The notes under the pieces are model-generated. The model had not been told where the DNA came from. It saw nothing but the letters and a program-made list of their open reading frames with translations, and did no database searches. Shown one piece after another: positions 9,557 to 27,122 of a DNA stretch of 27,459 bases. Origin of the DNA: a virus; IMG/VR virus record IMGVR_UViG_3300038441_001250, positions 1 to 27,459 of that record, one strand, 5' to 3'. The position numbers and the translations under genes are program-made. The first letter of the stretch is position 1, and each line of letters starts with the position of its first letter.

Positions 9557-10071
9557 CCGACTTCGTAAACACCAAGGCCAAGGCCTTCGGGTGGGTCATC
9601 CACCGCAAGCTGATCGCGCCTGGCGAGACCTACCGCGCGAGCGTGCTCGAAGACACGCTGCCCAAGGACAGCGAGAACATCACTCTCTGGACCAAGGGAC
9701 ATCTGGTGGGCACGCGTGAGGACGGCTACATCCCCCCACCTCGGCGCGCAGGCGATTTCAGCCTGGAGCGCCAGATGATGCCCAAGGGCGTCTACACGTT
9801 CACCGCCCTGGAAGCGAGCGAGTGGTGGTGCATCAACTGGCGCGCGAACCGTCACGCACTGCCCGCGGTGTTGCCGCTGCGCCTGGCGGCCGGGGAACAG
9901 CGGGCGCTGCGCGCCAGCACCCTGCTGCTCGTGTGCTCTGGCGCCCTTGAAACGCAGTCGGGGGAGCTTGGTCCAGGCACAGAGGTCGTGGTGGGCGCGG
10001 CTGGCGCGACTGTGCGCGCATCGCGCGCTGGTCCTGTTTTTGGCCTGTTTTTCGAGAAGGAGCGATCATGA
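9553..10071 (+). CDS. Cupin-like phage protein of unknown function
   Basis: A 172-aa protein starting at GTG 9553 (GTGA overlap). Residues 70-172 have the strand-turn rhythm of a small double-stranded beta-helix (cupin-like): QMMPKGVYTFTALEASEWW, then LPLRLAAGEQRALRASTLLL, GALETQSGELGPGTEVVV and a final ATVRASRAGPVFGLFFEKE. Cupin metal-binding His residues are not evident, so this is probably structural rather than enzymatic. Tail-fibre accessory proteins with such folds exist in other phages. The gene is translationally coupled to the fibre module upstream and to the desaturase downstream (ATGA at 10068), so it may have travelled with either. Function unknown. Confidence 0.6.
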   Translation: MTDFVNTKAKAFGWVIHRKLIAPGETYRASVLEDTLPKDSENITLWTKGHLVGTREDGYIPPPRRAGDFSLERQMMPKGVYTFTALEASEWWCINWRANRHALPAVLPLRLAAGEQRALRASTLLLVCSGALETQSGELGPGTEVVVGAAGATVRASRAGPVFGLFFEKERS

Positions 10072-10787
10072 GGCACGCCGCCTGGATGTCCACCTGCGCC
10101 TACTACGTGGGCCTGCTGTTCCTGTTCACGATGCCACTGCGTGACCCTGGCTGGGTGTCCTGGCTCCCAGTGCTGCTGGCGATTCAGATCGTTGGAGGCC
10201 TCACGATCAGCGTGGGCTACCACCGCCTGTTCTGCCATCAGGCTTTTCAGGCCGCGCGCCCTTGGCACTGGCTGTTTGCGTTCCTGGGTATCTACTACTG
10301 GTACGGGTCGCCCTCACAGTGGAGGCCCACCCACACCGCGCACCACGTGCACAGTGACACCCCCCTGGACCCACACCCATCCGGCCCCCGCGCGCTGCTG
10401 ACGAAGGCCTACAACGACGTGCCATTGGACGTGTGGTGCCTGCGGCGCCTCTGGCGAACTGACCCCACGCTGCATGCGTTGGTGGACCTGTTGTATGTGC
10501 CCATCGCCCTCCTGATGATCGCGGTGATGGCCTGGATCTCACCCACGTTCCTGACCATGGCTTACCTGCCCGCGCTGGGTGTGGCGCATCTGGTCGGCGC
10601 CATCCACAACACGTTCAGCCACTGGCCCAACGGACCGCGCGACATCTGGTGGATGGAATTGATTGCGCCGGCCGGCGGTGAGTGGCTGCATGCCACGCAC
10701 CACGCCAATCCTGGTCGCGTGAGTTTCCGAACGCGCTGGTACCACATTGACCCGGGCGCCGCGCTCATCCGTTTGATTCGTTCTTGA
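10068..10787 (+). CDS. Fatty acid (acyl-CoA/acyl-lipid) desaturase
   Basis: A 239-aa membrane protein starting at ATG 10068 with an excellent ribosome site (AAGGAG 10057-10062) and ATGA overlap. It shows the histidine boxes of membrane di-iron desaturases: HRLFCH (His52, His57), HTAHH (His89, 92, 93) within QWRPTHTAHHVHSD, the NTFSHW segment (His185) and HATHH (His208, 211, 212). The spacing and the 'DPH' after box 2 match the stearoyl-CoA delta-9 desaturase family. Four hydrophobic segments lie at about 10-25, 32-50, 66-80 and 140-178. Such enzymes insert a cis double bond into acyl chains using O2 and electrons from a redox partner. At 239 residues it is shorter than typical bacterial members, lacking most of the N-terminal leader, but no catalytic His looks missing. 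An auxiliary metabolic gene inside a fibre operon. Confidence 0.92.
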   Translation: MRHAAWMSTCAYYVGLLFLFTMPLRDPGWVSWLPVLLAIQIVGGLTISVGYHRLFCHQAFQAARPWHWLFAFLGIYYWYGSPSQWRPTHTAHHVHSDTPLDPHPSGPRALLTKAYNDVPLDVWCLRRLWRTDPTLHALVDLLYVPIALLMIAVMAWISPTFLTMAYLPALGVAHLVGAIHNTFSHWPNGPRDIWWMELIAPAGGEWLHATHHANPGRVSFRTRWYHIDPGAALIRLIRS

Positions 10788-13328: not shown

Positions 13329-13348
13329 GCCGGGGCCGTTGACTCCGA

Positions 13349-13389
13349 GGGCTTCCGGGGCAAAGTTGCCCGAAGGCCCACGGTGGGCC
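13349..13389 (+). other. Two overlapping GC-rich hairpins in an intergenic gap
   Basis: The 76-base gap 13329-13404 is the widest in the late block. An imperfect stem-loop spans 13349-13379 (GGGCTTCCGGGGC pairing with GCCCGAAGGCCC, with bulges). It shares bases with a second, perfect 6-base stem GGCCCA (13375-13380)/TGGGCC (13384-13389) with loop CGG. They cannot form together. No T-run follows. This could be a weak terminator, an attenuator-like switch or an RNA-processing site ahead of the acetyltransferase-like gene. Confidence 0.4.
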
Positions 13390-13404
13390 TCTTCGAGGGC
13401 CGCT

Positions 13405-14004
13405 GTGACCGTTTCCGCTATTCGTCAGGCACTGGTCGAGCACCTTGGGAAGGTGCTCACGCCGGACATCGCCATGGCTCTGGAAATGGCTGCTGTGGCC
13501 CCGGAAGACCGAAGCATCGACCCCCGCAGTTTCGGTCAACACCAGCATGGGGACTACACGATCGCCGCGGAGCGCTTCGCAAGCATCGTGGACGAGCTGC
13601 ACCCGCTGCACGAGGTCCACTGGCTTGAAACCGAGCATTACCGACACGGCCTTGCGCTGCGGCCGGACTATGCCGGGATGGCCGCCCTGGAGCGCAACGG
13701 CCGCGCCATCCAGTTCACTGTGCGCCACGCTGGCCAGCTCGTTGGGAACCTGCGCGTCTACCTGGGCACGAGCTTGCACACGCAGACCCCCTATGCGAGC
13801 GAAGACACCTTGTTTCTGCTGCCCGAGCACCGGGGCGGTTTCCTCGTGCTCGCGCTCATCAAGTTTGCCGAGGACGCCTTGCGCGCCATCGGGATCGACG
13901 AGTTCCGCGTGAACAGCAAGTTGGTCAACAACGCCGACGTGCTCATGCGCCGGCGCCGCTACACCCCTGCGGCGCTTCAGTTCGTCAAATTCTTCCAGGA
14001 GTGA
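13405..14004 (+). CDS. GNAT-family N-acetyltransferase-like protein
   Basis: I place the start at GTG 13405 (199 aa) because GAGGG at 13395-13399 gives a ribosome site at normal distance; a TTG at 13339 would include the hairpin region. The C-terminal half has the GNAT pattern. A strand IQFTVRHAGQLVGNLRVYLG is followed by TLFLLPEHRGGFLVLALIKF (the 'R..G' acetyl-CoA-binding turn and alpha helix), then IDEFRVNSKLVNNADVLMRRR. This order, strand 4, motif A, strand 5, is diagnostic. The N-terminal 60 residues are helical. The substrate is unknown; in this phage class a GNAT gene commonly sits between the tail protein and the internal-virion genes, so it may modify a virion or host protein. The motif-A glycines are partly replaced, so catalytic competence is not certain. 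Confidence 0.75.
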   Translation: MTVSAIRQALVEHLGKVLTPDIAMALEMAAVAPEDRSIDPRSFGQHQHGDYTIAAERFASIVDELHPLHEVHWLETEHYRHGLALRPDYAGMAALERNGRAIQFTVRHAGQLVGNLRVYLGTSLHTQTPYASEDTLFLLPEHRGGFLVLALIKFAEDALRAIGIDEFRVNSKLVNNADVLMRRRRYTPAALQFVKFFQE

Positions 14005-14008
14005 AGCC

Positions 14009-14800
14009 ATGTGCTCCGACGCACCAGACCAGAGCGGCGTGAACGCCGCAGCCATCGCGAACGCGGAGATCTCAAAGGAGGCGCTTGACTTCTACAAGCA
14101 GGTGTACGCGGAGCAAGCGCCAGCCCGAGCGGAAGCTGCCGCCGTGGCCAAAGAAGTCTCGCAGCGCCAGTTGGAGAGTTCCAAGCTCAACGACGAGATC
14201 AGCAAGGACTACTGGGACTACCAGAAAAACACGTTCCGGCCACTGGAAGAAGGCATCGTGGCGGAGGCTCAGGCCTATGACACGGCGGAGCGGCGCGAGG
14301 CCGAAGCGGGCACTGCAGTGGCCGATGTTGGAATGCAGGCCCAGGTGGCGCGCGATGCTCAGACTCGGCAACAGCAGCGCATGGGCGTGAATCCGAACAG
14401 CGGGGCTGCGGTCTCAATGCAGAACGTCTTGAGCATTGGAGACGCGGCTGCCAAGGCGGGAGCCGCTGGTGCAGCGCGCAAGAACGTGGAAACGGTTGGT
14501 CGTGCGATGAAGATGGACGCGGCCAGCCTGGGCCGCAATCTCGCATCGAGCCAAGCCACCAGCGCCAGCGTGGCGCTGAGTGCCGGCGACAGAGCGGTAG
14601 TCAACGCCAGCGCTCCACAACAACAAGCACAGAGCGCCGCGAGCATGATGGGGCAGGGGTTTCAAACCAGCATCAACGGCAACTCGTCGGCGGGGCAACT
14701 GTTTGGCCAAGCCGCCAATGCCCAGGCAGGCGCGGACGCGGCAAACGGCCAGGCTCTTGGCGGCTTGGCGGGCGCGGGCATGATGGCCGTGGCCATCTGA
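14009..14800 (+). CDS. Internal virion-like protein, first of set
   Basis: A 263-aa soluble protein starting at ATG 14009 behind AGGAG. It opens with MCSDAPDQSGVNAAAIANAE and continues as long Ala/Gln/Glu helices (ALDFYKQVYAEQAP; YWDYQKNTFRPLEEGIVAEA), ending in a Gly/Ala/Gln-rich region. The pattern 'C..pD.sg.N.aA..na.iak.al.wy...y' with the 'Y.dYq...frPlE..i' helix is typical of phage proteins encoded just before the large ejection proteins, comparable in size and position to T7 gp14. I infer an ejected internal virion protein, the outer-membrane-pore type. The Cys at position 2 lacks a signal peptide, so it is not a lipoprotein. Confidence 0.65.
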   Translation: MCSDAPDQSGVNAAAIANAEISKEALDFYKQVYAEQAPARAEAAAVAKEVSQRQLESSKLNDEISKDYWDYQKNTFRPLEEGIVAEAQAYDTAERREAEAGTAVADVGMQAQVARDAQTRQQQRMGVNPNSGAAVSMQNVLSIGDAAAKAGAAGAARKNVETVGRAMKMDAASLGRNLASSQATSASVALSAGDRAVVNASAPQQQAQSAASMMGQGFQTSINGNSSAGQLFGQAANAQAGADAANGQALGGLAGAGMMAVAI

Positions 14801-14811
14801 TCGGAGCCGCC

Positions 14812-16227
14812 ATGCAAAGCAGCTACGAGGTTTCGGTCAACGCAGCCACGCGCGCGGCAGTCGCGAGCGGCATTAACGTGCTCAACGCCTACCTGTTTGG
14901 CCAGACGGAGACGGAGCATGTCGCCCGGCTGCTCGACATGATGGACCCTCCGCCTGGCGCGGTGGTGATCGATGCAGGCTGCGGCGTCGGCGCGGTCGCC
15001 GAGGTCATGGCGCAGTTTCGGTCGGACCTACAGTTTGTCCTCGTGAACTCGAATGCCGAGCAGTTGGCGCGGTGTCCGGCCAGGATGCAGCAGCACCTGT
15101 GCAGTTTCGATCAGATGCCGCTCGACGACTGCAGCGCCGATGTGGTGATGTTCCATTTCTCGATCTGCCACGCGGAAAACTGGAGCGCGGCCGCGCGCGA
15201 GGCGTGGCGCGTGCTCAAACCCGGCGGCCTGCTGTTCATCAACGACATGCAGCGCATGCGCGGCGACAACACGCTTCTGGCCCACACGTTGAAGGCCTAC
15301 GCGCACCCTGCTGGGGCCGTCGAAGAGGCCGCGCAGCGATGCGGTTTCGAGCTGGATGCGCTGATCGAGCCAGCACCCGTGGTGGAGCGACTGGCGCAGG
15401 CCCTCGATTCGCCTGCCTGGGCAACGGCGCTGCTGTCGGACGTGGCGCCGGCCGTGTGGCGCTTCACCAAGGCCGTGGCGGCCGGGCCCGTTGCATCAGC
15501 CTTCGCGCGCCATCGCCGCATCGGCTTCCAGTTCTCGGGCGGCCGTGACTCCACCGCGGCGCTGTACCTGCTGCGCCCTTACTGGGATCGCATGACGGTC
15601 TACCACCTGGACACCGGCGATCAGTTTCCTGAGACGCGGGCTGTGGTCGAGGCGGTCGAGCGCGATATGGGGAAACCCATGACGCGGATCGCCGGTGATG
15701 TGGAGGCGGTGCGCGAGCAATACGGGCTGGCCACTGACCTGCTGCCCGTCGACAACACCGCGCTGGGGCGCATGGTTTCCGGCAAGTCCGTGAAACTCAT
15801 CAGCCGATTCGACTGCTGCTACCTGTCGCTCATGAAGCCAATGCAGGCCCGCATGGTTGCCGACGGCATCACCCTCGTGGTTCGTGGTCAGCGCGACGAC
15901 GAGTACCACCAGCCGCCGCTGCGATCCGGCGATGGCGAGGGCGGCATTGAGGCGCTCTATCCCATTCAGGACTGGACGGGCGACGAAGTCTCGGCATACC
16001 TCGTGGCCCGAGGTCTTCCGCTCGCCCCGTTTTACGAGCGCGGCGCGCGCCGAGCGCCAGAGTGCATGGGGTGCACGGCCTGGTGGGACGAGGGCCGTGC
16101 CGCCTACCTGCGCAAATGGCATCCAGTCGCGTTCACCCAGTACCAGCAGCGCATGGGCGTCGTGAAGAACCAGATCCACCAGCAATACGCCGTCTTGATG
16201 GCGGCCGAAAAGGAGACCCAGCCATGA
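14812..16227 (+). CDS. SAM methyltransferase fused to PAPS reductase-like PP-loop domain
   Basis: A 471-aa two-domain protein. Residues 1-215 form a class I SAM methyltransferase: motif I VVIDAGCGVG (51-60), acidic strand end, a LDDCSADVV segment, and WRVLKPGGLLFI (132-143). Residues 236-450 are a PP-loop/PAPS-reductase-like domain: SGGRDST (242-248), HLDTGDQFPET (265-275), Cys335-Cys336 and Cys418-x-x-Cys421, and an RGQRDDEYH segment. The CC...CxxC set is the [4Fe-4S] signature of APS reductases. The C-terminal ECG(I/L)H catalytic-Cys motif of PAPS/APS reductases is absent; the end is VVKNQIHQQYAVLM. It may therefore be a nucleotide-activating ATPase or sulfur-transfer enzyme (DndC also belongs to this superfamily) rather than a reductase. 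It lies between internal-virion genes; the next gene overlaps by ATGA. Confidence 0.85.
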   Translation: MQSSYEVSVNAATRAAVASGINVLNAYLFGQTETEHVARLLDMMDPPPGAVVIDAGCGVGAVAEVMAQFRSDLQFVLVNSNAEQLARCPARMQQHLCSFDQMPLDDCSADVVMFHFSICHAENWSAAAREAWRVLKPGGLLFINDMQRMRGDNTLLAHTLKAYAHPAGAVEEAAQRCGFELDALIEPAPVVERLAQALDSPAWATALLSDVAPAVWRFTKAVAAGPVASAFARHRRIGFQFSGGRDSTAALYLLRPYWDRMTVYHLDTGDQFPETRAVVEAVERDMGKPMTRIAGDVEAVREQYGLATDLLPVDNTALGRMVSGKSVKLISRFDCCYLSLMKPMQARMVADGITLVVRGQRDDEYHQPPLRSGDGEGGIEALYPIQDWTGDEVSAYLVARGLPLAPFYERGARRAPECMGCTAWWDEGRAAYLRKWHPVAFTQYQQRMGVVKNQIHQQYAVLMAAEKETQP

Positions 16228-17867
16228 GCAAAGGCGCAGCCATCGCAAACGCGCTCGCACAGGGCATCAACGGCTATTTCCGGGGCATGAACTACACCCT
16301 GCAAATGCAGCGCGACGAGAAGGAATCGGAGTATCGCGACGAGCAGCGCGATCGCCAGCGAAAGGACGATGCGAAGAAGGACAAGTTGGAAACCGACTTG
16401 GCCGACGCCGCCGCGCCGCGCACCACCATGCAGGGCACTGTCACCGAGACCGCCGACAACAAGTTCCTGAATGCTGACTCGGCGCAGGCCGCCGCCATGC
16501 AGGACACGCTGGCAGCCGAAGCCGAGTTGAAGGGCGAATCGGCGCCCACCCAGCAGGCCGGCACCGGCGTGGTGGGCACGATGGCGCGCGGCAACGAGAT
16601 CACGACCGGGCCGGTGGACACGTCCAAAGTCAACAGCTCCGATGCGCGCAACGAGCGAGTGCTTGGCGCGCTGCGCAGCAACGGGCAGGTTGAACGCGCC
16701 ATGAGCATGGAGAGCAACATCCTGGACCAGCAGGCCAAGCGCCTGGGCCTGGATGTGGCCCAGGCCAAGTTCGCTGACGAGCAGTTCAACCGTAAGCTCA
16801 CCGAGCGCCTCTCCACGCCAAACTGGGGCGAGGAGGCGGCGAAGATGCTCGACGAGACCGAGGTGGGCAGTCTCGCTGGCGTGACCGTCACCTCGCGCCC
16901 GTCCAAGGACGGCAAGTCGATCGACCTCGTCGGGGTGCGCGACGGCAAGGAGAAGGTGGTAGGCACGTTTGAGAACAGCGATGCCGGACGCGCCAAGTTC
17001 ATGCAACAGGTCGCACGCGTGCCGCTCGAAGCCAAGATCGGCTGGATCGTCGAGTCGGAGAAATCCGCGCGCGAGGAGCAGCGGTGGCAGCAAACCTTCG
17101 ACTTCAACAAGAAGAAGGAGGAGAACGACCAGCAGTACCGCAACCGCGTGCTCAGCATCCAGATGGCCCAGGAATCGCGCGCGCGCCAGACGCACGCCCT
17201 GGCCATGGAGGACGCCAAGATCCCGCCTGCGGTAAAGCTGCAGGCGCAAACGCTGGCCAAGCAAATGGAGACCATCAACTCCGCGCTGTCCAAGGCGATG
17301 GCCGAGGGTTCCTTCGACGCGAACAACCCCGCATCTGCGGACCTGATCAAGCAGCAGCGGGTGCTCGGCTTGAAGTACCAGAACCTGCTCACGCCATACA
17401 CCCCCGGCGCGCAGAAGAACGCCGACCCTCTGGGACTGGGCGGTGGCGAGGCGCCGGCTGCTGGTGCGCCTGCTTCGACGCCCGCTGCCACCACCACGAC
17501 CCAGCAGCCCTCTGCTCCGGTGCCACGCATGGGGATTGGCGGCGGAGCGATGCCACCGGCGGCCGCGCCCGCTGCTGCGCCAGCGCCTGCGAAAGAAAAG
17601 CCGACCGTCGCCCAGGTGCTCGCAGGCCCCAGCGCCGATCCGACGCTCCTGGCCAGCGCGCAGCAGAAGGCCCAGGTGGTCGAGCAACTGGCCGGGCAGA
17701 TCAAGGCCGCGCAGGCCGCCGTGGCCCAGACCGCTCGTGCGAACCCTGCAGGCGTCGGCCCGGCCATGCAGCAGGTGGCCGCCGCGCGTGCAGAACTCAC
17801 GAAGGCCCTCGCGGGCATGAACGATCAGCAGGCCGCCCAGGTTCTGGCGGCTGTCGGACTCCAGTAA
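16224..17867 (+). CDS. Internal virion-like protein, second of set (coiled coil)
   Basis: A 547-aa protein starting at ATG 16224 (ribosome site AGGAG 16211-16215; ATGA overlap). Residues 1-60 are a helix with alternating charge (DEKESEYRDEQRDRQRKDD). A middle domain with short strands is at about 210-265. Long Gln/Glu/Lys helices follow (KKKEENDQQYRNRVLSIQ), then a Pro/Ala/Thr-rich linker (415-465), and a last Ala/Gln helix. Size, composition and position directly before the giant protein match the middle internal-virion protein of podoviruses (T7 gp15-like by position only). I infer a DNA-ejection component; no enzymatic motif is visible. Internal starts upstream in the MTase gene were rejected as shadow frames. 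Confidence 0.65.
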   Translation: MSKGAAIANALAQGINGYFRGMNYTLQMQRDEKESEYRDEQRDRQRKDDAKKDKLETDLADAAAPRTTMQGTVTETADNKFLNADSAQAAAMQDTLAAEAELKGESAPTQQAGTGVVGTMARGNEITTGPVDTSKVNSSDARNERVLGALRSNGQVERAMSMESNILDQQAKRLGLDVAQAKFADEQFNRKLTERLSTPNWGEEAAKMLDETEVGSLAGVTVTSRPSKDGKSIDLVGVRDGKEKVVGTFENSDAGRAKFMQQVARVPLEAKIGWIVESEKSAREEQRWQQTFDFNKKKEENDQQYRNRVLSIQMAQESRARQTHALAMEDAKIPPAVKLQAQTLAKQMETINSALSKAMAEGSFDANNPASADLIKQQRVLGLKYQNLLTPYTPGAQKNADPLGLGGGEAPAAGAPASTPAATTTTQQPSAPVPRMGIGGGAMPPAAAPAAAPAPAKEKPTVAQVLAGPSADPTLLASAQQKAQVVEQLAGQIKAAQAAVAQTARANPAGVGPAMQQVAAARAELTKALAGMNDQQAAQVLAAVGLQ

Positions 17868-17879
17868 TCGGACGCTCAC

Positions 17880-20800
17880 ATGAACCTCGAAGAAGCCCGC
17901 AAGCGCCTGCCCGAACTCGAAGGGCTGAGCGACCCCGCTGCGATCGATGTGATCCACGAGGTCTACTACCCGCAGATGGACAAGGCCAAGCTGGCGGGCA
18001 AGTTGGGCTACAAGGCCCCGCCGGCGCCCGCGCCAGAGCGCAGCACCATGCGCGCCGCAGGCGACTTAGCGCTGCAGTTCGGTGGTGGTGCCGTGTCTGG
18101 TGTGCGCATGATGTCCGACTTGCTGGGGGCGAACAACGCGGTGTCGGGCACGCTGCGCAACGCCGAGGACGCCCTGCAGAAACTCCAGAGCGCGGCTGCG
18201 CAGGCCGACCAGCAGCAGATCGCCGCCATCATGAAAGAGGCCGAAAGCAAGGGCTTCGTGGACCAGGTGCTGGCGGGGGTCAAGGCATTCGGCGTGGCGC
18301 CTGCGGCAATGGTTGCTCAAGCCCTGGGCACTTCGCTGCCCACCCTGGCCACAGCAGCCATTCCAGGCGCTGGGCCCATGGCACTGGCGGCGCGCCTTGG
18401 CGCGGCAGGTGCGGTGGGCGCAGGGCAGGGCGCGGGCAACATCAAGGGCGTCATCTACGACCAGGTGAAGGCAAACCCACTGCCGGGTGAGGCGCCCGAA
18501 CAGACCGAGGCCCGCGCCGTGGACGCGCAGTCCTACACCGGAGAAAACGCCGATCAGATCGCGCTGGGCGGTGGCCTTGGCCTGCTCGCTGGTGCCACGG
18601 GTATGGAGCGGGCCGTCGGCGCTCTGCGAAACGGTGTCGCGAAGGCCGCGCCCGGCATGGCCGCGCGCGTGGGCCTCGGCGCCGCTGGCGAAGCCGTGCC
18701 GGAGGCCCTGCAGGGTGGCCAGGAGAAGCTGGCGGGCAACCTGGCGCTCGGCCGCGAGGGGTTCGATGTGGACCCCATGTCGGGCGTCGTGGCCGGCGGC
18801 ACGATGGAGGCGCTGGCCGGCGGCGTAATGGGTGGCGCAACGGCGCTTCCTCGACCCGCAGTGCGCACGCCCGACCCGATTTCCCAGGCCGGCGACGCCA
18901 TTCGATCGGCTGAGGTGGTGCCGGAGTCGGGCCCGATGACCCGCGCGGCCAACGTGGCCACCGAGATGAAGGCGCAGCAAGCTGAGGCCGACGTCGCTGC
19001 GCAGGTGGCCGCGATCGAGCCTGCCGAACCTGCGCCGGTGCCAGCACAGCCAGTGGCCGACGATCCGGTGGCGCAGCCCGTCGCCGCTGTCTCGCCGGTT
19101 GAAGCCGCGCCGGTGGACGCCTCGGACGCTGCCCAAGAGCAGCGGGCCAACAACGCGCTGGCCAGCATGGAGCGCCAGGCGCAACGCGACATGCAGAGCA
19201 TGCGCGATTTCAGCCGGACCACGCCTGCCACCAGCGATGTGCCCGATCCGTTCGCCGACGTGCCGGTGGCCGGCGGTGCGCCCGCGGCTGCCGCGTCGGG
19301 GGATGTCCTGAATCCCAAGGGCGAGCCTTTCAAGACCAGGATGGCTGCGCAACGTGCCACCAAGAAGACCCCTGGCGATGTCGTGCCCGTCGCGGGCGGC
19401 TTCGTCGTTCGCCCAACCATCTCCCAGGATCTCGCCAGTGAGCCCACCCAAGGAACCCCAGATGCAGCCGCTGTCGCGCCGTTTGACGCGGGCGCAGCGC
19501 CGGCAGTGGAGCCCGGTGCCGGGCCCGATGCGGGAGAAGCTGGCGCTGCAGCGCTTGTTCGACCGGCCGAGCCCGAGCAGCCTGCGGCACTGATCGCGCA
19601 GGCCCCTGCCATGCCTGCCGCTGAAAGCGACTGGCAGGTCTTCCCAGCCGACACCGAGACGCTCAACGTGCCGCGCGCCGAGATGCCGCAGATCAAGGCC
19701 GCGCACCGCGGCGCGATGGTCAATTTCCTCAAGGCCCGAGGTATTGAGCACGAGGCCGACGAGGTGGCGGCCAACACGCTCAAGCCCACCCAGGCCGAGT
19801 TTTCAATCTCCAAGGTGAAGAAGGCCCAGGACTTCGGCGACCCCGATCGTTCCATCCTGGTGTCGGCCGACGGCTACGTGGTCGATGGCCACCACCAGTG
19901 GATTGCGCGCGGAGCCAACGGCGCCAGCGTCAAGGTGATCCGCCTCAAGGCTCCGATCTCCGAGCTGCTGCCCGCGGTGCGCGAGTTTCCCAGCTCCACC
20001 GTCGATGAAACGACAGCCGATGTCCAGAACGCAACGCAAGAGCCCGCAGGGGAAGCGGCCCAAGCCGCGAACACTGAAACGACAGCGCCAGCGGGAAGCG
20101 ATGGAGCCGCCACCGAAGGAGTTTCCCCAGAGGGAAGTTCCCCCGTGGAAGCCGCTGGGGTGAAGGATGGGGCAGCGCCCGAGTCGGACGCCGCCCACCC
20201 CCCGCAGGCGGATGCGTCGCCTCCTCAACAAACCGGCCAGGCTCCTGAGCCCGAACCCGAGCAGCGCACGCCGGAAAAGGTGGTGGCGCGGCGTAAGCGC
20301 CTGATCGCTGAACGCAAGGCCTCCGAGATTGCCTCACCAGCCCAAGAAGCAACGAAGGAGGCGCCTGCAACGGAGGCGCCCGCCCCATCGAAGCCGAAGG
20401 CGAAGCGGCAGACGGCGGCCTCGCGCCAGGCGGAAGCAGAGGCCGCGCGCGCCGGCTATTTCACCCCTGGTCACGTGGTGCGCGGTTACGGTGGCTTCGA
20501 TGAGGTGTTGGCGTACAACCCAACAGACGGCGGCGGGTTCAGCGTGACCGTGCATGAGGTGAAGCGCGTGGGAGACGAATGGCACCGCGTCGGCAAGCCG
20601 CAGGACGCGCGCACGCACAGCACGCAGCCCGAGGACCGGCTGCTCAAGAACGGCCCATTCGCGCGCCTGTCCTACCGTCGCGCTGGCGAGGTGGTCTACA
20701 CCAGCCCGCGCGCTGATGGCCAGCCGTTCCCGAATGCCGTTGATCGAGGTGTCGCGCCGCCTGCGGAGAAGGTCGCCGAGCCTGATCCAGCACCAGCCCC

Positions 20801-23800
20801 GAAGGCTGAACGAGCGGCCGCTCCAAAGAGCGCCGCACCGGTCAAGATCGAGGACTTCGGCGAGAAGCTCGCCGGCGCGCGCAAGGACTACGCCGCGCAG
20901 CTCAAGGACGCCGAGGCCCTGGACGTGTCCGCTGTGCCGCTGTCGCAGTCGTGGCCCGAGCCGGACTACCAGAAGCTGCTGGAGGGCGGCGCCGATCCAT
21001 TCACCGTGGCGTTCATTCACGCTGCGCGCGATGAGGTGCCGAACAAGCCGCAGACGGCTTGGAAGCTCAAGGGATGGGTGCCGATGGTGAATGCGCTTCG
21101 CGGCATGTCGCACATGCTGCTGGCGGGCCGTGCCACGAGGCAGTCCTTGACGGACATGCTCAGCCGCGCCGACATGCGCAGCGTGCGCGATGGAGTCGCC
21201 AGCCGCGCCGAGCTTTACGAGGCTGTGGGGCACGACCGGTCGCTTAAAGGCCTGTCGTTCGCTGAGCACCACTACTCGCTCTACAAGGGCCAGCCGAACG
21301 TGCGGAAATGGGTTGTCTCGCAGCGCTCGAAGTCCACTGCTTTCGGCAACTGGCCCCGCGAGCTGGCCGTCGGCGATACCAAGGCGGCCATGCTGGAGCA
21401 GTTCACGGCGAAGCTGGTTGCTCAGGACATCAATGGTGTCAGCGCCAAAGCCAAGCCCAGTTTCGTGATCTACGGCAAGCGCGGCCAGAAGGGCGCGTTC
21501 ATCGGGAAGAAGATCGGGCGCGAGTACATCGACCTGCACAAGGCCGACGACGTCGTCGCCGCGCGACGCTACATGGCCGAGAACACGGCCGCGCTGGAGA
21601 AGGCGCTGGAGCGATACAAAGAAACCCCGTTCGAGCGGAAGTCGGAGAATGCCCCCCGTGTTGGTGGCGACCACCGCAATGGCGCGCCGGTGACGCCCGA
21701 GGTTTTTGGCGACACCTTCGGTTTCCGTGGCGTGCAGTTCGGCAACTACGTGGAGCAGGGTCGGCGTCAGTCGGACCTCAACGAGGCGTTTGACGCCCTG
21801 ATGGACATGGCCGCCGTGCTCGACCTGCCGCCGCGGGCACTCTCGCTCAACGGGCGGCTGGGGTTGGCCTTCGGCGCGCGTGGCAAGGGCGGGAAGAACG
21901 CCCCAGTCGCGCACTATGAGCCCAGCAGCGTGGTGATCAACCTCACCAAGGGCGGCGGGCCCGGCAGCTTGGCGCACGAGTGGTTCCACGCCATGGACAA
22001 CTATTTCGCCAAGGAGGGCGGGGATATCGGGTTCATGACCGACGCAGCACGCGGCGACGCGCTGCGCGCGGAGATGCGCGAGGCGTTCATGGTCATCAAG
22101 CGCGCGATGAACCAGGGCGAACTCAAGAAGCGTTCGCTGGAGCTGGACAAGCGCCGCTCGAAACCGTACTGGTCCACATCGCTGGAGATGGCAGCAAGGT
22201 CGTTTGAGAGCTACGTGATCGCGAAACTCTACGACCAGGGCGCGGCCAACGACTACTTGGCCAACGTGGTCAGCCCGGAATACTGGGCGGCCGAAGAGGC
22301 GATGCGCGAGGTGTTCGAGGGCAAGAAGGCCGGGCCGACCTTTCCCTACCCCACGGTGGACGAGATGCCGGCGTTGCGCGCAGCGTTCGACGACTTTTTC
22401 AAGGTGGTCCAAACCCGCAAAGATGACGATGGCAAGGTGGCCATGTTCAGTCGCGCGGAAGGGGCGCCGAAGGGCATCAGCCCGGCCCAGGCGTCGAGCA
22501 TCGTCAGCGCGCTCAGCAAGCGTTGGGCGAACGCACCCGAGGTGGTGGTTGTTTCCAGCATCCAGGACGAAGCGGTCCCGGTCGAGGTCCGCGAGCATGA
22601 CCTTGAGCAACGAAGCCTTGGCGCCAGTGGCGAGCCGGAAGGATTCTGGTACGACGGCAAAGCCTACGTGGTGGCTGGCGCGCTGAATGGCCCTGCGGAC
22701 GTGGTGCGCGTGCTATTCCACGAGGCGCTCGGCCACTACGGCCTGCGTGGCACGTTCGGCGAAGGTCTGACCCCCATCCTGAAGCAGTTGATCGCCATGC
22801 GGCGGCCCGCCGTCGAAGCGAAGGCAGCGCAGTACGGCCTGCAGATGAGCAACGAAGAGCACCGGATGCAGGCCGCCGAGGAAGTGCTGGCCGAGATGGC
22901 TCAAAGCCGTCCAGGGCTCGGCTTCGTGAAGCGCGCGATCGCAGCCGTTCGCGCGTGGCTGCGCACGCACGTGCCCGGGTTTGCGAGCATGAAGCTCACC
23001 GACACGGACATCATTTCCCAGTTCATCCTGCCCGCGCGCCGGTTTGTCGAGAATGGCGCTGCGCGCCAGCAGGGGGGCGTCGAACCCGCCATGGCGTTCA
23101 GCAAAGCCGAGCGCAATGCCCTGGACGAGATCAGCCGCATGGACGAGATGTTCGCCGTGCCGAAGTCCAACCAGTTGACCCTGGAGGGCATCTTTGCTGA
23201 CCTGGCGCCGCAGATCCAGGTGAAGCGCGGGCATGCCATGGGCACGCAGACCACCTACCGGCTCACGTTGCCAATCGCGAACAAGGGCGATGGGTTGATC
23301 ACGGCCACGGTGACGGTGCGAGAGCCGAACCCCTATGGCGCGAGTGTCTATGGGGTGGAGTTCGACGCCGAGAACGAGATCATGGAGGCCTCTACGGTGC
23401 GCCCGGGGGAAAACCCAGCGGACCTGTCGCCGGACATGGCGGATGTGTGGATCGATGTCTCCAGCCTGCCCCAGGGGTCCGGCTTGGGCGAGATCATCTA
23501 CAGTGCGGCCGCCAATTTCGCGCACAACACCGGGCGGGTGTTCATCGGCGACCCTAACGGGTTGAGCGCTGTCGCGCTGCGCCGCCGCACTGAGCAGATG
23601 ATCTCCAGCGCATTGAAGTTCGGCACGACCGACCACCTCGCGCCCCATCCCGACCAGGTGAAAGGTGACACCGCCGCCGGCGTGCCGGCGCTGCGGTGGG
23701 TCTATGGTGACTCGGAGGGCAACATCGAGCGCATGATTGACGTGAGCCTCCAGTCCATCGAAAATGCCCTTCCTTCCGCGAAACTCATCGGGTATGACGC

Positions 23801-26800
23801 TGCCAGCAACAAGTTCTTCCGCATCGACACCGGCGCTCGCTTGCCTTTCCGATCGGCAATTGCTGGCGTGGTCAATGCGCAGAGTTTGGGCAGGGCTATC
23901 GACGGGCGACGACCTGATGGCCTGGGCCGAGCAGCCGACCGAGCAGGACAAGGCGTGGATGCTGGAGCAGCAAGCGCGGGATCAGCGGGTTGGCGTACTG
24001 TTGCGCGAGCTGCACTATTTCGGTACCTCCGAGAGGCCCAGGGCGTGGCGGCCGACGGAGCAGACCGAGGAAGCCTTCTGGACCGATTGCGCGATGCGGG
24101 CGCCCGGCTTGGACGAGAAGGCCCAGTTGCAAGCGGTGGCGCGTCTGCGGAACCCATCTTCTACAGCCGTAGCGCGGGCAACAGCAACGGCCTGAGCGCC
24201 GAGACGGGGGCGCGTTTCAGCCGCTCCCTCACCGAATCGATCAACAACGTCCGCAGCATGGCGCTGCCGGCCGGCTACGTCGTCAACGACCTGTTCCAGT
24301 CCACCGGCAAGCTGTCGTGGTGGAACAAGACGGTGGGCACGATGTACAACCTCGCGCAGCGCGAGCGCGACTTCAAACCGGTGTTCGACAAGGCGCAGGA
24401 GTTTCTGAACGACGTGGCGTTCTACGCCGCCGAGGCCTCCAACCTGGCGCCCAAGATCTTGCCCAAGCTGGAAACGCTCAAGGACATCACGAAGTCGCCC
24501 ATTTCGGCCGCCGACAATAAGGCCATTTCCGCGCCCATCTTTGAAGGGACGCTCACATGGATGCGCGACCCCTCGACGCGCAAGCCCATCACCATGGAAG
24601 AGGCCGAGGCGAAGGCCGCCAGCATGACCACCGAGCAGAAAGCCGGTGAGCTGGTGCGTAAGGGCATGCTCGCGCCCGAGGTGCTCAAGATGTGGCAGGG
24701 TCAGCCGGTGGATCAGTACACGGCCATGGTGTCCGACCGGTACGAGCGGGACATGCTGAACGCCGGCATCGTCTGGACCGACGCCGAACTCAAGGGGCAG
24801 TTCAAGCTGAGCGATGACCAGGTGGCGCTCTACCGCGAGTTTCGGGCGGCAGTGGACAAGAGCCTCTCCACCCTGGCGATCGCCGATATGGTGCGCTTCG
24901 GTGGCCAGGACGTGCAGCCGGTGCGCGAGCTGGCGCTGGAAGCCGAAAGCGTGGATGCCGCGGCGAAACTGTTGCGGGACTTCCTGCTCGCTGAGGCCGA
25001 GGCGGACCCGGCGCGCAAGCGCGTCCTGACCGACACCGCCGACCGCATGCTGGACAAAGCGGCGAAGGCGAACAGCCTGATGGAGCGCGGCTACGCGCCC
25101 CTGTCGCGATTTGGGCGGTACTCGCTGGACGTGGTGGATGCCGGCGGCGAGCGCGTGTACTTCGGGCTGTTCGAGTCCCAGGCCCAGGCCAACAAGATGG
25201 CGCGCCAGATGCGCGGCAACTTCCCCAAGGCCTCGATCACCCAGGGCACGGTGAGCCAGGAGGCCTACAAGATGTTCGCCGGCGTGTCGCCTGAGACTCT
25301 GGAGCTGTTCGGCCAACTGGTTGGCCTGGAGGCGAAGGGCGATGGTGCACTGAACGAGGTGTTCCAGCAGTACCTCAAGAACGCGAAGAGCCAGCGCAGT
25401 GCGATGAAGCGCCTGATCCAGCGCAAGGGCATCTCCGGTTTCAGCGAAGACCCGGGCCGCGTGCTGGCCGGCTTCGTCTACTCGAATGCCCGGCAGACTT
25501 CGAGCAGCCTGCACATGGGCGAGCTGGCCACTGCCGTCGACGAGATCCCGAAGACCAAGGGCGAGCTCAAGGACATGGCGGTCAAGCTCAACGACTATGT
25601 GAAGAACCCCCAGGAGGAGGCGCAGGCGCTGCGCGGTCTGCTGTTTGCCCAGTACCTGGGCGGCTCGGTGTCGTCGGCGCTGCTCAACGCCCTGCAGCCG
25701 GTGCAGGTCACCTTTCCGTGGCTTTCGCAGTTCGGGGGCGGCATCAAGGCTGCCAGCCGCATGAAGCGCGCCATCAGCGACGTGCTCGCTCGCCGCGAAC
25801 TGGAGCCGACCCTGGCCAAGGCCTTGAAGAAGGCCGAGGAAGACGGCGTGGTGAGCCCGCAGGAGGTGTTCCAGCTCCAGGCCCAGGCCGCAGGTCGCGC
25901 ACCGCTGCTGACGAGCGATGGCACCCGCCTAGGCGCCGCCGGCGCGGCCGCCAACAACACGCTGTCGCGTGTCACGCTGGCCTGGGGCAAGCTGTTCGGC
26001 GCGGCCGAGCAGTTCAACCGCCGCTCGACCTACATCGCGGCGTATCGCACGGCGGTGGAGCAGGGCATGGGCGACCCGGCCAAGTTTGCCGAGCGCGCGG
26101 TTTACGAGACCCAGTTCGTCTACTCCAAGGCCAACCGGCCGCAGTGGGCCCGCGGTGCCGTCGGCGCGACCCTCTTCACCTTCAAGCAGTACAGCATCAG
26201 CTACGTGGAGCTGATGCACCGCATGTACACCCAGGGCGGCCCCGAGGGCAAGAAGGCCGCGCTGCTGGGCATCGCGGTGCTGTTCCTGATGTCCGGGCTG
26301 GGTGGGCTGCCCTTCAACGACGATCTGGAGGATCTGATCGACGGCTTCATGCAACGGGTGATGAACCGCAACTTCAACACCAAGCAGGCGAAACGGGAGT
26401 TTTTCACCAACCTGCTGGGCGCCAATTTGGCCAACTTCCTGGAGCGCGGAGTTTCCGGGCTGCCGGGCGCGCCCATCGACGTGTCGGGCCGGCTTGGGCT
26501 GGGCAACCTCATTCCTGGCACCGGCGTGTTTCAGAAGAAGGACGATTACAGCCGCGACCTGCTGGAGATCGTCGGCCCGGCCGGAGACTTCGCGAAGCGC
26601 GGTGGCCAGGCTGCCGGCAAGGCGCTGCAGGGCGAGGTGCTGGGCGCTCGCGGCGCGTTGGCCACCGTTTCGCCTGTGGCCTCGCGCAACGCCATCAAGG
26701 GCTGGGAGATGGCCACCACCGGCATGTACCTGGATGACCGAGGCCGCAAGGTGCTCGACTCGAGCGGCATGGATGCCCTGTTCAAGTCCATCGGCATCCA

Positions 26801-27122
26801 GCCAGCCGGCGTAGCCCAGGTGCAGGAATCGGTGTTCGAGGTGCAGCGCCAGATCTCGCTCAACAAGATGCGCGAGACCGAGATCGCGAACAAGTGGGCC
26901 ATGGGGGTGTTCCGCAAGGACTCCGACCTCGTCCGTGAGGCGCGGAGTGAGCTGGCCGCCTGGAACCGCGACAATCCCAGCACACCCATCGTGATAAAGA
27001 TGCCTCAGATCCTCAAGCGCGTGCGCCAGATGAACCTCAACAAGGCCGATCGCATCGCCAAGACCGCGCCCACCGAGATTCGGAGCCAGGTGCGCGATGC
27101 GCTGCGCGAGGCTCAGCGATGA
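17880..27122 (+). CDS. Giant 3080-aa polyvalent PLxRFG-type internal virion protein
   Basis: ATG 17880 begins one unbroken 3080-residue frame. In order: hydrophobic Gly/Ala-rich helices (about 58-330); Pro/Ala linkers; a small PFKTRMAA...GGFVVRP unit (478-510); a ParB/Srx-like domain (601-702) with VVDGHHQW at 668-674; a YFTPGHVVRGYGG domain (860-945); a helical region; an LPD5-like piece (about 1190-1240); an LPD1-like domain (1277-1385) with zincin motif His1366-Glu1367-x-x-His1370; a second metallopeptidase-like domain with HEALGH (His1614, Glu1615, His1619); a mixed region; the PLSRFG motif (2407-2412); and an LPD38-like C-terminal part (about 2600-3000) with FKQYSISYVELMH. Polyvalent proteins of this type are ejected with phage DNA and combine host-conflict domains. 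Domain names are from pattern memory. Residues about 2009-2091 have inverted codon bias (see nested ORF). Confidence 0.88.
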   Translation: MNLEEARKRLPELEGLSDPAAIDVIHEVYYPQMDKAKLAGKLGYKAPPAPAPERSTMRAAGDLALQFGGGAVSGVRMMSDLLGANNAVSGTLRNAEDALQKLQSAAAQADQQQIAAIMKEAESKGFVDQVLAGVKAFGVAPAAMVAQALGTSLPTLATAAIPGAGPMALAARLGAAGAVGAGQGAGNIKGVIYDQVKANPLPGEAPEQTEARAVDAQSYTGENADQIALGGGLGLLAGATGMERAVGALRNGVAKAAPGMAARVGLGAAGEAVPEALQGGQEKLAGNLALGREGFDVDPMSGVVAGGTMEALAGGVMGGATALPRPAVRTPDPISQAGDAIRSAEVVPESGPMTRAANVATEMKAQQAEADVAAQVAAIEPAEPAPVPAQPVADDPVAQPVAAVSPVEAAPVDASDAAQEQRANNALASMERQAQRDMQSMRDFSRTTPATSDVPDPFADVPVAGGAPAAAASGDVLNPKGEPFKTRMAAQRATKKTPGDVVPVAGGFVVRPTISQDLASEPTQGTPDAAAVAPFDAGAAPAVEPGAGPDAGEAGAAALVRPAEPEQPAALIAQAPAMPAAESDWQVFPADTETLNVPRAEMPQIKAAHRGAMVNFLKARGIEHEADEVAANTLKPTQAEFSISKVKKAQDFGDPDRSILVSADGYVVDGHHQWIARGANGASVKVIRLKAPISELLPAVREFPSSTVDETTADVQNATQEPAGEAAQAANTETTAPAGSDGAATEGVSPEGSSPVEAAGVKDGAAPESDAAHPPQADASPPQQTGQAPEPEPEQRTPEKVVARRKRLIAERKASEIASPAQEATKEAPATEAPAPSKPKAKRQTAASRQAEAEAARAGYFTPGHVVRGYGGFDEVLAYNPTDGGGFSVTVHEVKRVGDEWHRVGKPQDARTHSTQPEDRLLKNGPFARLSYRRAGEVVYTSPRADGQPFPNAVDRGVAPPAEKVAEPDPAPAPKAERAAAPKSAAPVKIEDFGEKLAGARKDYAAQLKDAEALDVSAVPLSQSWPEPDYQKLLEGGADPFTVAFIHAARDEVPNKPQTAWKLKGWVPMVNALRGMSHMLLAGRATRQSLTDMLSRADMRSVRDGVASRAELYEAVGHDRSLKGLSFAEHHYSLYKGQPNVRKWVVSQRSKSTAFGNWPRELAVGDTKAAMLEQFTAKLVAQDINGVSAKAKPSFVIYGKRGQKGAFIGKKIGREYIDLHKADDVVAARRYMAENTAALEKALERYKETPFERKSENAPRVGGDHRNGAPVTPEVFGDTFGFRGVQFGNYVEQGRRQSDLNEAFDALMDMAAVLDLPPRALSLNGRLGLAFGARGKGGKNAPVAHYEPSSVVINLTKGGGPGSLAHEWFHAMDNYFAKEGGDIGFMTDAARGDALRAEMREAFMVIKRAMNQGELKKRSLELDKRRSKPYWSTSLEMAARSFESYVIAKLYDQGAANDYLANVVSPEYWAAEEAMREVFEGKKAGPTFPYPTVDEMPALRAAFDDFFKVVQTRKDDDGKVAMFSRAEGAPKGISPAQASSIVSALSKRWANAPEVVVVSSIQDEAVPVEVREHDLEQRSLGASGEPEGFWYDGKAYVVAGALNGPADVVRVLFHEALGHYGLRGTFGEGLTPILKQLIAMRRPAVEAKAAQYGLQMSNEEHRMQAAEEVLAEMAQSRPGLGFVKRAIAAVRAWLRTHVPGFASMKLTDTDIISQFILPARRFVENGAARQQGGVEPAMAFSKAERNALDEISRMDEMFAVPKSNQLTLEGIFADLAPQIQVKRGHAMGTQTTYRLTLPIANKGDGLITATVTVREPNPYGASVYGVEFDAENEIMEASTVRPGENPADLSPDMADVWIDVSSLPQGSGLGEIIYSAAANFAHNTGRVFIGDPNGLSAVALRRRTEQMISSALKFGTTDHLAPHPDQVKGDTAAGVPALRWVYGDSEGNIERMIDVSLQSIENALPSAKLIGYDAASNKFFRIDTGARLPFRSAIAGVVNAQSLGRAIDGRRPDGLGRAADRAGQGVDAGAASAGSAGWRTVARAALFRYLREAQGVAADGADRGSLLDRLRDAGARLGREGPVASGGASAEPIFYSRSAGNSNGLSAETGARFSRSLTESINNVRSMALPAGYVVNDLFQSTGKLSWWNKTVGTMYNLAQRERDFKPVFDKAQEFLNDVAFYAAEASNLAPKILPKLETLKDITKSPISAADNKAISAPIFEGTLTWMRDPSTRKPITMEEAEAKAASMTTEQKAGELVRKGMLAPEVLKMWQGQPVDQYTAMVSDRYERDMLNAGIVWTDAELKGQFKLSDDQVALYREFRAAVDKSLSTLAIADMVRFGGQDVQPVRELALEAESVDAAAKLLRDFLLAEAEADPARKRVLTDTADRMLDKAAKANSLMERGYAPLSRFGRYSLDVVDAGGERVYFGLFESQAQANKMARQMRGNFPKASITQGTVSQEAYKMFAGVSPETLELFGQLVGLEAKGDGALNEVFQQYLKNAKSQRSAMKRLIQRKGISGFSEDPGRVLAGFVYSNARQTSSSLHMGELATAVDEIPKTKGELKDMAVKLNDYVKNPQEEAQALRGLLFAQYLGGSVSSALLNALQPVQVTFPWLSQFGGGIKAASRMKRAISDVLARRELEPTLAKALKKAEEDGVVSPQEVFQLQAQAAGRAPLLTSDGTRLGAAGAAANNTLSRVTLAWGKLFGAAEQFNRRSTYIAAYRTAVEQGMGDPAKFAERAVYETQFVYSKANRPQWARGAVGATLFTFKQYSISYVELMHRMYTQGGPEGKKAALLGIAVLFLMSGLGGLPFNDDLEDLIDGFMQRVMNRNFNTKQAKREFFTNLLGANLANFLERGVSGLPGAPIDVSGRLGLGNLIPGTGVFQKKDDYSRDLLEIVGPAGDFAKRGGQAAGKALQGEVLGARGALATVSPVASRNAIKGWEMATTGMYLDDRGRKVLDSSGMDALFKSIGIQPAGVAQVQESVFEVQRQISLNKMRETEIANKWAMGVFRKDSDLVREARSELAAWNRDNPSTPIVIKMPQILKRVRQMNLNKADRIAKTAPTEIRSQVRDALREAQR
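23917..24195 (+). CDS. Nested ORF in the +1 frame of the giant gene (possible overprinted gene)
   Basis: A 92-codon frame inside the giant gene, from ATG 23917 (an earlier ATG at 23875 is in frame) to TGA 24193-24195. It encodes MAWAEQPTEQDKAWMLEQQA, then LLRELHYFGTSERPRAW and EEAFWTDCAMRAPGLDEKAQ, a normal-looking helical, Trp/Gln/Glu-containing protein. By my count about one in eight of its codons over 23917-24150 ends in A or T, versus about half in the giant frame over the same bases, which there reads as G/A/R/D-rich sequence. No good ribosome site precedes either ATG. The last 15 residues look like a shadow of the giant frame. It may be a real overprinted gene, an inserted gene remnant, or the mark of two compensating frameshifts. 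Confidence 0.4.
   Translation: MAWAEQPTEQDKAWMLEQQARDQRVGVLLRELHYFGTSERPRAWRPTEQTEEAFWTDCAMRAPGLDEKAQLQAVARLRNPSSTAVARATATA

Follow-up and report, generated by a model that had tools for sequence, protein, structure and literature searches.

A methyltransferase fused to an APS-reductase-like PP-loop domain without the reductase motif in a Bcep22-like podovirus

Introduction

Phage homologues of the protein described here have so far been named reductases: those of phages JC1 (PMC9144972) and CSP3 (PMC10269572) were both called PAPS reductase, and viral cysH was reported as an auxiliary metabolic gene of assimilatory sulfur metabolism (PMC8319345). Together with BcepIL02 gp67, JC1 gp65 and the CSP3 protein are stand-alone members of PHROG 424. 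PP-loop enzymes are also described in other settings. CasCysH of type IV-B CRISPR systems has a CysH fold with an SGGxDS/T loop and no catalytic Cys, and it was proposed to adenylate a substrate (PMC8175902). DndC has three Cys cluster ligands and a Cys dyad (PMC10853773), and LarE is a PP-loop sulfurtransferase with a three-Cys [4Fe-4S] site (PMC13329287). PAPS-reductase-like proteins replace the methyltransferase in type 4 BREX (PMC12839542), and Cap9 deazaguanylation is a case in which a PP-loop enzyme modifies proteins (PMC11996544).

We analysed a stretch of viral DNA of 27,459 nucleotides (IMG/VR record IMGVR_UViG_3300038441_001250; hereafter the window), which covers part of the genome of a Bcep22-like podovirus. 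One of its genes joins a methyltransferase to a PP-loop domain of the PHROG 424 family, with 46-49% identity to BcepIL02 gp67, JC1 gp65 and the CSP3 protein over that domain and the same place in the virion operon. A description of such a fusion was not found in the literature.

Results

The fused gene is a single frame (Table 1) in which Pfam profiles recognize Methyltransf_11 (PF08241, 1.1e-16, aa 54-143) and PAPS_reduct (PF01507, 1.2e-15, aa 239-414), both above their curated cut-offs; the PHROG 424 "PAPS reductase" profile also matches (5.9e-40). Both halves folded confidently in one AlphaFold2 model of the full-length protein (71-row alignment), with a mean pLDDT of 95.4, a pTM of 0.85 and no low-confidence segment. 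The PP-loop domain folded alone and without alignment gave a pLDDT of 45.8, and this model was discarded. Methyltransferases fill the list of PDB fold neighbours obtained for the fused protein. An identical protein is encoded on a 64-kb contig (L006). An earlier reading of the window, made from its letters only (the sequence-only reading), had described one frame with both domains, a SAM-binding motif, a PP-loop and two Cys pairs; the frame is indeed open, the motifs stand at the residues it gave, and there is neither a Cys beyond residue 421 nor an ECG(I/L)H motif.

Table 1. Features of the fused gene and its neighbours in the window.
Feature	Position	Strand	Remarks
GNAT-type acetyltransferase, two genes upstream	13339..14004	+	Conserved neighbour, phrog_4470/1249 type
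Virion structural (ejection-type) protein, directly upstream	14009..14800	+	phrog_8003, 6e-46
Fused methyltransferase / PP-loop (PAPS-reductase-like) gene	14812..16227	+	471 aa, ATG, no internal stop
Class I SAM-methyltransferase domain, aa 1-222	14812..15477	+	PF08241, 1.1e-16; small-molecule-methyltransferase fold
SAM-binding motif I VVIDAGCGVG, aa 51-60	14962..14991	+	D54, G56, G58, G60 invariant in 21 family methyltransferases
PP-loop / APS-reductase-like domain, aa 233-437 (to 471 with C-terminal helix)	15508..16122	+	PF01507, phrog_424, hhalign to CysH
PP-loop SGGRDST, aa 242-248, ATP-pyrophosphatase type	15535..15555	+	SGG[KR]DS in 101/101 relatives
LDTGDQFPET, aa 266-275, APR/PAPSR-like motif	15607..15636	+	CysH alignment
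Family-specific G-x-P/A-x-D-x-x-P element, aa 305-312	15724..15747	+	G305 59/60, D309 59/60, P312 53/60
Cys335-Cys336	15814..15819	+	59-60/60; aligned to tandem Cys of APS reductase
RGQR, aa 358-361, counterpart of APR TGxRR	15883..15894	+	R358 55/60, G359 59/60, R/K at 361 60/60
Cys418-M-G-Cys421	16063..16074	+	59/60; aligned to CxxC of APS reductase
C-terminal long helix, aa 438-469	16123..16218	+	DSSP of model; site of APR's mobile catalytic ECG(I/L)H tail
Probable virion protein, downstream	16224..17867	+	ATG overlaps stop of fused gene; position of BcepIL02 gp68/69
Giant 3080-aa polyvalent protein, DarB position	17880..27122	+	LPD1, LPD5, LPD37; BcepIL02 gp70 "DarB-like", same position

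The N-terminal half has the motif I and the fold of class I SAM methyltransferases. It matches AtmM, SpnF, MitM and GPP-MTase over residues 1-223 with Z scores of 22-24, and this likeness to small-molecule enzymes (AtmM, SpnF, RebM, geranyl-PP MTase) spans the entire domain at 14-19% identity. It differs from them by an invariant Asn79 that ends strand 2 and by its exclusive partnership with a PP-loop enzyme. The residues invariant among 21 methyltransferases of the subfamily are H36, D54, G56, G58, G60, R70, D72, N79, Q84, R133 and G139. The [DNS]PP[YFW] catalytic motif of DNA amino-methyltransferases is absent from this half, where the motif IV region reads DVVMFHFSICHAENW. The methyltransferase half is one coherent, specific subfamily with a small-molecule-methyltransferase fold.

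The C-terminal half shares with assimilatory APS reductase (CysH, TIGR02055) its fold, the LDTGxxxxET motif, and CC and CxxC at equivalent positions. Profile comparison with a Burkholderiales CysH (hhalign) gave a probability of 96.7%, and when two Burkholderiales CysH were aligned, the four Cys fell on known [4Fe-4S] ligands. SGG[KR]DS, CC and CxxC are each present in all 101 non-redundant relatives, the CxxC count including nine members that read CxxCPA. The alignment and these 101 relatives bear out the proposal of a PP-loop domain that resembles APS reductase and has its CC...CxxC pattern but lacks the reductase Cys; the four Cys would bind a [4Fe-4S] cluster.

The differences from APS reductase are nevertheless extensive. 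The phage domain carries an SGGxDS loop, an ATP-type PP-loop like that of CysD, whereas the two Burkholderiales CysH have an S(x)GxED-like sequence in its place and retain ECGLH; ECG(I/L)H is found in none of the 101 relatives (0/101). The GxPxDxxP element sits in an insert that is a gap in APS reductase, and the C-terminal helix and the methyltransferase partner are equally foreign to that enzyme. Moreover, four residues after the tandem Cys, APS reductase has a conserved sulfate-contacting Lys (P. aeruginosa enzyme); the fused protein has Leu340 there, and Leu or Ile predominates across the family in a 60-sequence alignment. Against TIGR02055 the full protein scored 43.1 bits and the domain 46.4, far short of the curated cut-off of 235.3. 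With the reductase motif missing in 101/101 relatives and the sulfate-contacting Lys replaced, the protein is therefore not a reductase: a working APS/PAPS reductase was ruled out on these two grounds, and the conserved residues, as aligned here, contradict the label "PAPS reductase" used in phage papers. An ATP-type loop combined with an APR-type cluster site that lacks the nucleophile fits an adenylating enzyme, and the PP-loop half is best read as a putative substrate-adenylating ATP-pyrophosphatase whose [4Fe-4S] site is of the APR kind.

The same fusion, at 47-57% identity, occurs on other viral contigs and in prophages of Comamonadaceae; the prophage copies lie in Xenophilus, Variovorax and a MAG. 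Its recurrence in prophages and on many separate contigs shows that the fusion is real, and an assembly artefact was ruled out as its source; a strict separation of the two domains in relatives, by which the sequence-only reading would have stood refuted, is not seen. In one Rhodoferax prophage copy (L098, near 8495), the two domains are separated by an in-frame TGA. A search of 399 Burkholderiales genomes returned one additional match only, weak and broken, and the gene is therefore rare in hosts.

We scored the placement of the methyltransferase with separate models for each half. It was found as an N-terminal fusion, as a C-terminal fusion (L049), as an overlapping gene just upstream, or just downstream. 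When mapped on a tree of 99 PP-loop domains, the methyltransferase is gained or lost at least 13 times; the N-terminal fusion requires at least 3 changes on starred branches. The pairing is obligate for the methyltransferase. Among 36 viral loci with the subfamily (>100 bits), 32 encode a PP-loop domain within the methyltransferase gene or next to it, three of the remaining four have a PP-loop gene elsewhere on the contig, and in one the contig ends too soon; a PP-loop gene thus accompanies the methyltransferase in 35/35 testable viral contigs, counts that represent non-independent events on partly redundant or related contigs and that were obtained with a query built from PP-loop-linked examples, which may miss distant unlinked members. 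The PP-loop gene, for its part, often stands alone. No PP-loop domain was found near the 12 loci of weaker, generic methyltransferases (<100 bits). The two domains have correlated distances (r = 0.80); none of 5000 permutations reached this value, to which shared phage ancestry contributes in part.

That the methyltransferase always occurs with a PP-loop gene, while the reverse does not hold, implies a shared substrate or pathway for the two domains, with methylation as an optional second step. The same asymmetry suggests that the PP-loop step comes before methylation, and since phages without the methyltransferase do well, the two steps would not be inseparable. The domains are fused in either order, lie next to each other on either side and occur together even when unlinked, which supports the functional coupling suggested by the sequence-only reading; its suggestion that both activities serve one substrate is strongly supported, on comparative grounds, by the repeated fusion and pairing.

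Other partners and copies were also seen among the relatives. In two of them (L009:273-1349 and L010:4351-5448), a CxxCxxCC (PF03692) metal-binding domain replaces the methyltransferase as N-terminal partner. A third PAPS-reductase-like protein (L011:5401-6369) has a C-terminal Peptidase_S74 endosialidase-chaperone domain, usually found on tail spikes, and a sequence similar to this Peptidase_S74 end closes the upstream ejection protein of L063. The L174 contig (G407) carries a second, weaker PAPS-reductase-like ORF (9923-10567; 367 aa) near an unlinked methyltransferase.

The gene order of the window is that of the BcepIL02 virion module: tail fibres, head-closure/internal virion protein, acetyltransferase, virion protein, PAPS-reductase-like gene, virion proteins and the giant protein in the DarB position. 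Fibronectin type III domains occur in a further protein of the window, 675 aa long (3215-5242). A homologue of the ejection/virion protein lies directly 5' of the (methyltransferase-)PP-loop gene in 59 loci, and a phrog_4470-type acetyltransferase lies two genes 5' of the PP-loop gene, distant relatives included; this acetyltransferase may belong to the same pathway. The place of the fused gene within an operon of virion and ejection proteins suggests late expression.

Mass spectrometry of purified JC1 virions detected gp64, gp67, gp68 and gp69, but neither gp63 (GNAT) nor gp65, the PP-loop protein (PMC9144972). In the BcepIL02 annotation, gp66, gp68 and gp69 are virion-associated and gp65 and gp67 are not. 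Because JC1 virions are devoid of gp65, a stand-alone homologue rather than the fused form, the enzyme of the window is by analogy probably left behind in the infected cell and not carried by the virion.

Discussion

On balance we favour a non-reductase, ATP-activating PP-loop enzyme joined to a dedicated methyltransferase that acts on the same substrate, late and inside the cell. In this scheme, the PP-loop half would be an ATP pyrophosphatase of the N-type built on the APS-reductase fold with its four-Cys [4Fe-4S] site, the reductase chemistry having been lost. It would bind and presumably cleave ATP and activate the substrate by adenylation, after which a second group (an amine, sulfide or other nucleophile) would be joined to the adenylated substrate. 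The N-terminal small-molecule-type SAM methyltransferase would methylate that substrate too, with the PP-loop step most likely coming first. The fused protein would be expressed late, as part of the virion/ejection-protein operon, and serve as a catalyst within the infected cell. The adenylating role agrees with that proposed for CasCysH (PMC8175902), which shares the CysH fold, the SGGxDS/T loop and the missing catalytic Cys; it belongs to the csf operon on plasmids with no methyltransferase reported, whereas the phage gene belongs to a virion operon. The PHROG 424 proteins of BcepIL02, JC1 and CSP3 differ from the window's protein in standing alone.

As to the substrate, progeny DNA or nucleotides head our ranking, followed by a late virion protein and then by tRNA or another metabolite. 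The first option would amount to a late anti-restriction marking, at a locus that also has a polyvalent protein in the DarB position. The literature search yielded no restriction digests of JC1 or CSP3 DNA. Thio-modification of nucleic acid is a lesser possibility within this ranking. The sequence-only reading had left open adenylation or thiolation, each combined with methylation: adenylation together with methylation is plausible, while thiolation is weakened by the four-Cys site, because four invariant Cys here, as opposed to three in LarE and DndC, make sulfur transfer less likely.

Two other roles seem unlikely to us. The first is that of a thio- or phosphorothioate-modification enzyme of the DndC/SspD/BrxP kind, which would thiolate DNA or RNA before the methyltransferase methylates the product. 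These proteins share with the phage domain the PP-loop PAPS-reductase superfamily, the iron-sulfur site that would be expected here and a link to nucleic-acid modification, the locus may be devoted to anti-restriction, and in type 4 BREX PAPS-reductase-like proteins take the place of the methyltransferase (PMC12839542). The SspD and BrxP models show weak similarity to the fused protein (1.1e-5 and 3e-5), and the SspD model to the BcepIL02 homologue (1.2e-12); these models have no curated cut-off. The DndC model TIGR03183 finds no match at E <= 1 with the PP-loop domain alone and is not among the best 25 of 39 matches of the full protein, and the Cys arrangement differs as well: DndC has three ligands and a dyad (PMC10853773), and in L145 only one Cys occupies its CC position. 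Nor were Dnd, Ssp or BREX partners or a DNA-scanning partner gene noted beside the fused gene among the annotated or Pfam/PHROG-scanned neighbours, and the methyltransferase is of the small-molecule type.

The second, to which we give equally little credence, is modification of a virion protein, most likely the adjoining ejection protein, along with the neighbouring acetyltransferase. The conserved positions of the ejection and GNAT genes (the latter kept in distant relatives) would suit such a role, as would the one relative with a tail-spike S74 domain and the precedent of Cap9 (PMC11996544), which is the second-best PDB sequence match of the fused protein (2e-6). QueC-like Cap9 and QatC are PP-loop enzymes that resemble the phage family in their SGGxDS loop and C-terminal Cys pair, but they have a Zn motif C(x)nCxxC(xxC) and handle 7-deazapurines, whereas the phage motif is CC...CxxC. 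The synteny may be mere inherited order, the methyltransferase fold points to small substrates, and no acceptor residue proved to be conserved at the two termini of the ejection protein encoded upstream.

It is very improbable that the fused protein is packaged, ejected and active before host defences respond, as the sequence-only reading had suggested from its place between virion-protein genes: JC1 virions hold the flanking proteins and not gp65 or gp63 (PMC9144972), and the BcepIL02 annotation gives a similar picture. Hardly credible at all is a working APS/PAPS reductase that serves host sulfate assimilation as an auxiliary metabolic gene and is fused to a methyltransferase by accident, as the names given in JC1 (PMC9144972), CSP3 (PMC10269572) and phrog_424 and the listing of viral cysH among sulfur genes (PMC8319345) would have it, in the face of the missing catalytic motif, the replaced Lys, scores of 43-46 against 235 bits and the obligate methyltransferase partnership.

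The preferred reading of an adenylating enzyme with its own methyltransferase may have a wider bearing. We propose, tentatively and with more doubt than conviction, that a late pathway made of a CysH-like adenylating enzyme, a methyltransferase and probably an acetyltransferase places a hitherto unseen mark on progeny DNA, nucleotides or a virion protein, and that the family explains many phage cysH genes. If this is true, a large share of the phage "sulfur-metabolism" cysH genes would belong to a non-reducing family. As the conserved residues bar a reductase role, ecological claims on viral cysH need checking; the genes reported in PMC8319345 may include such members, and their catalytic Cys is worth a look. 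The obligate methyltransferase partner is the first concrete handle on the role of the PP-loop enzyme, and the pairing points to an ATP-driven, two-step chemical modification and not to sulfur metabolism. The product, once known, would be a new modification, and it might also shed light on the role of CasCysH in type IV-B CRISPR systems.
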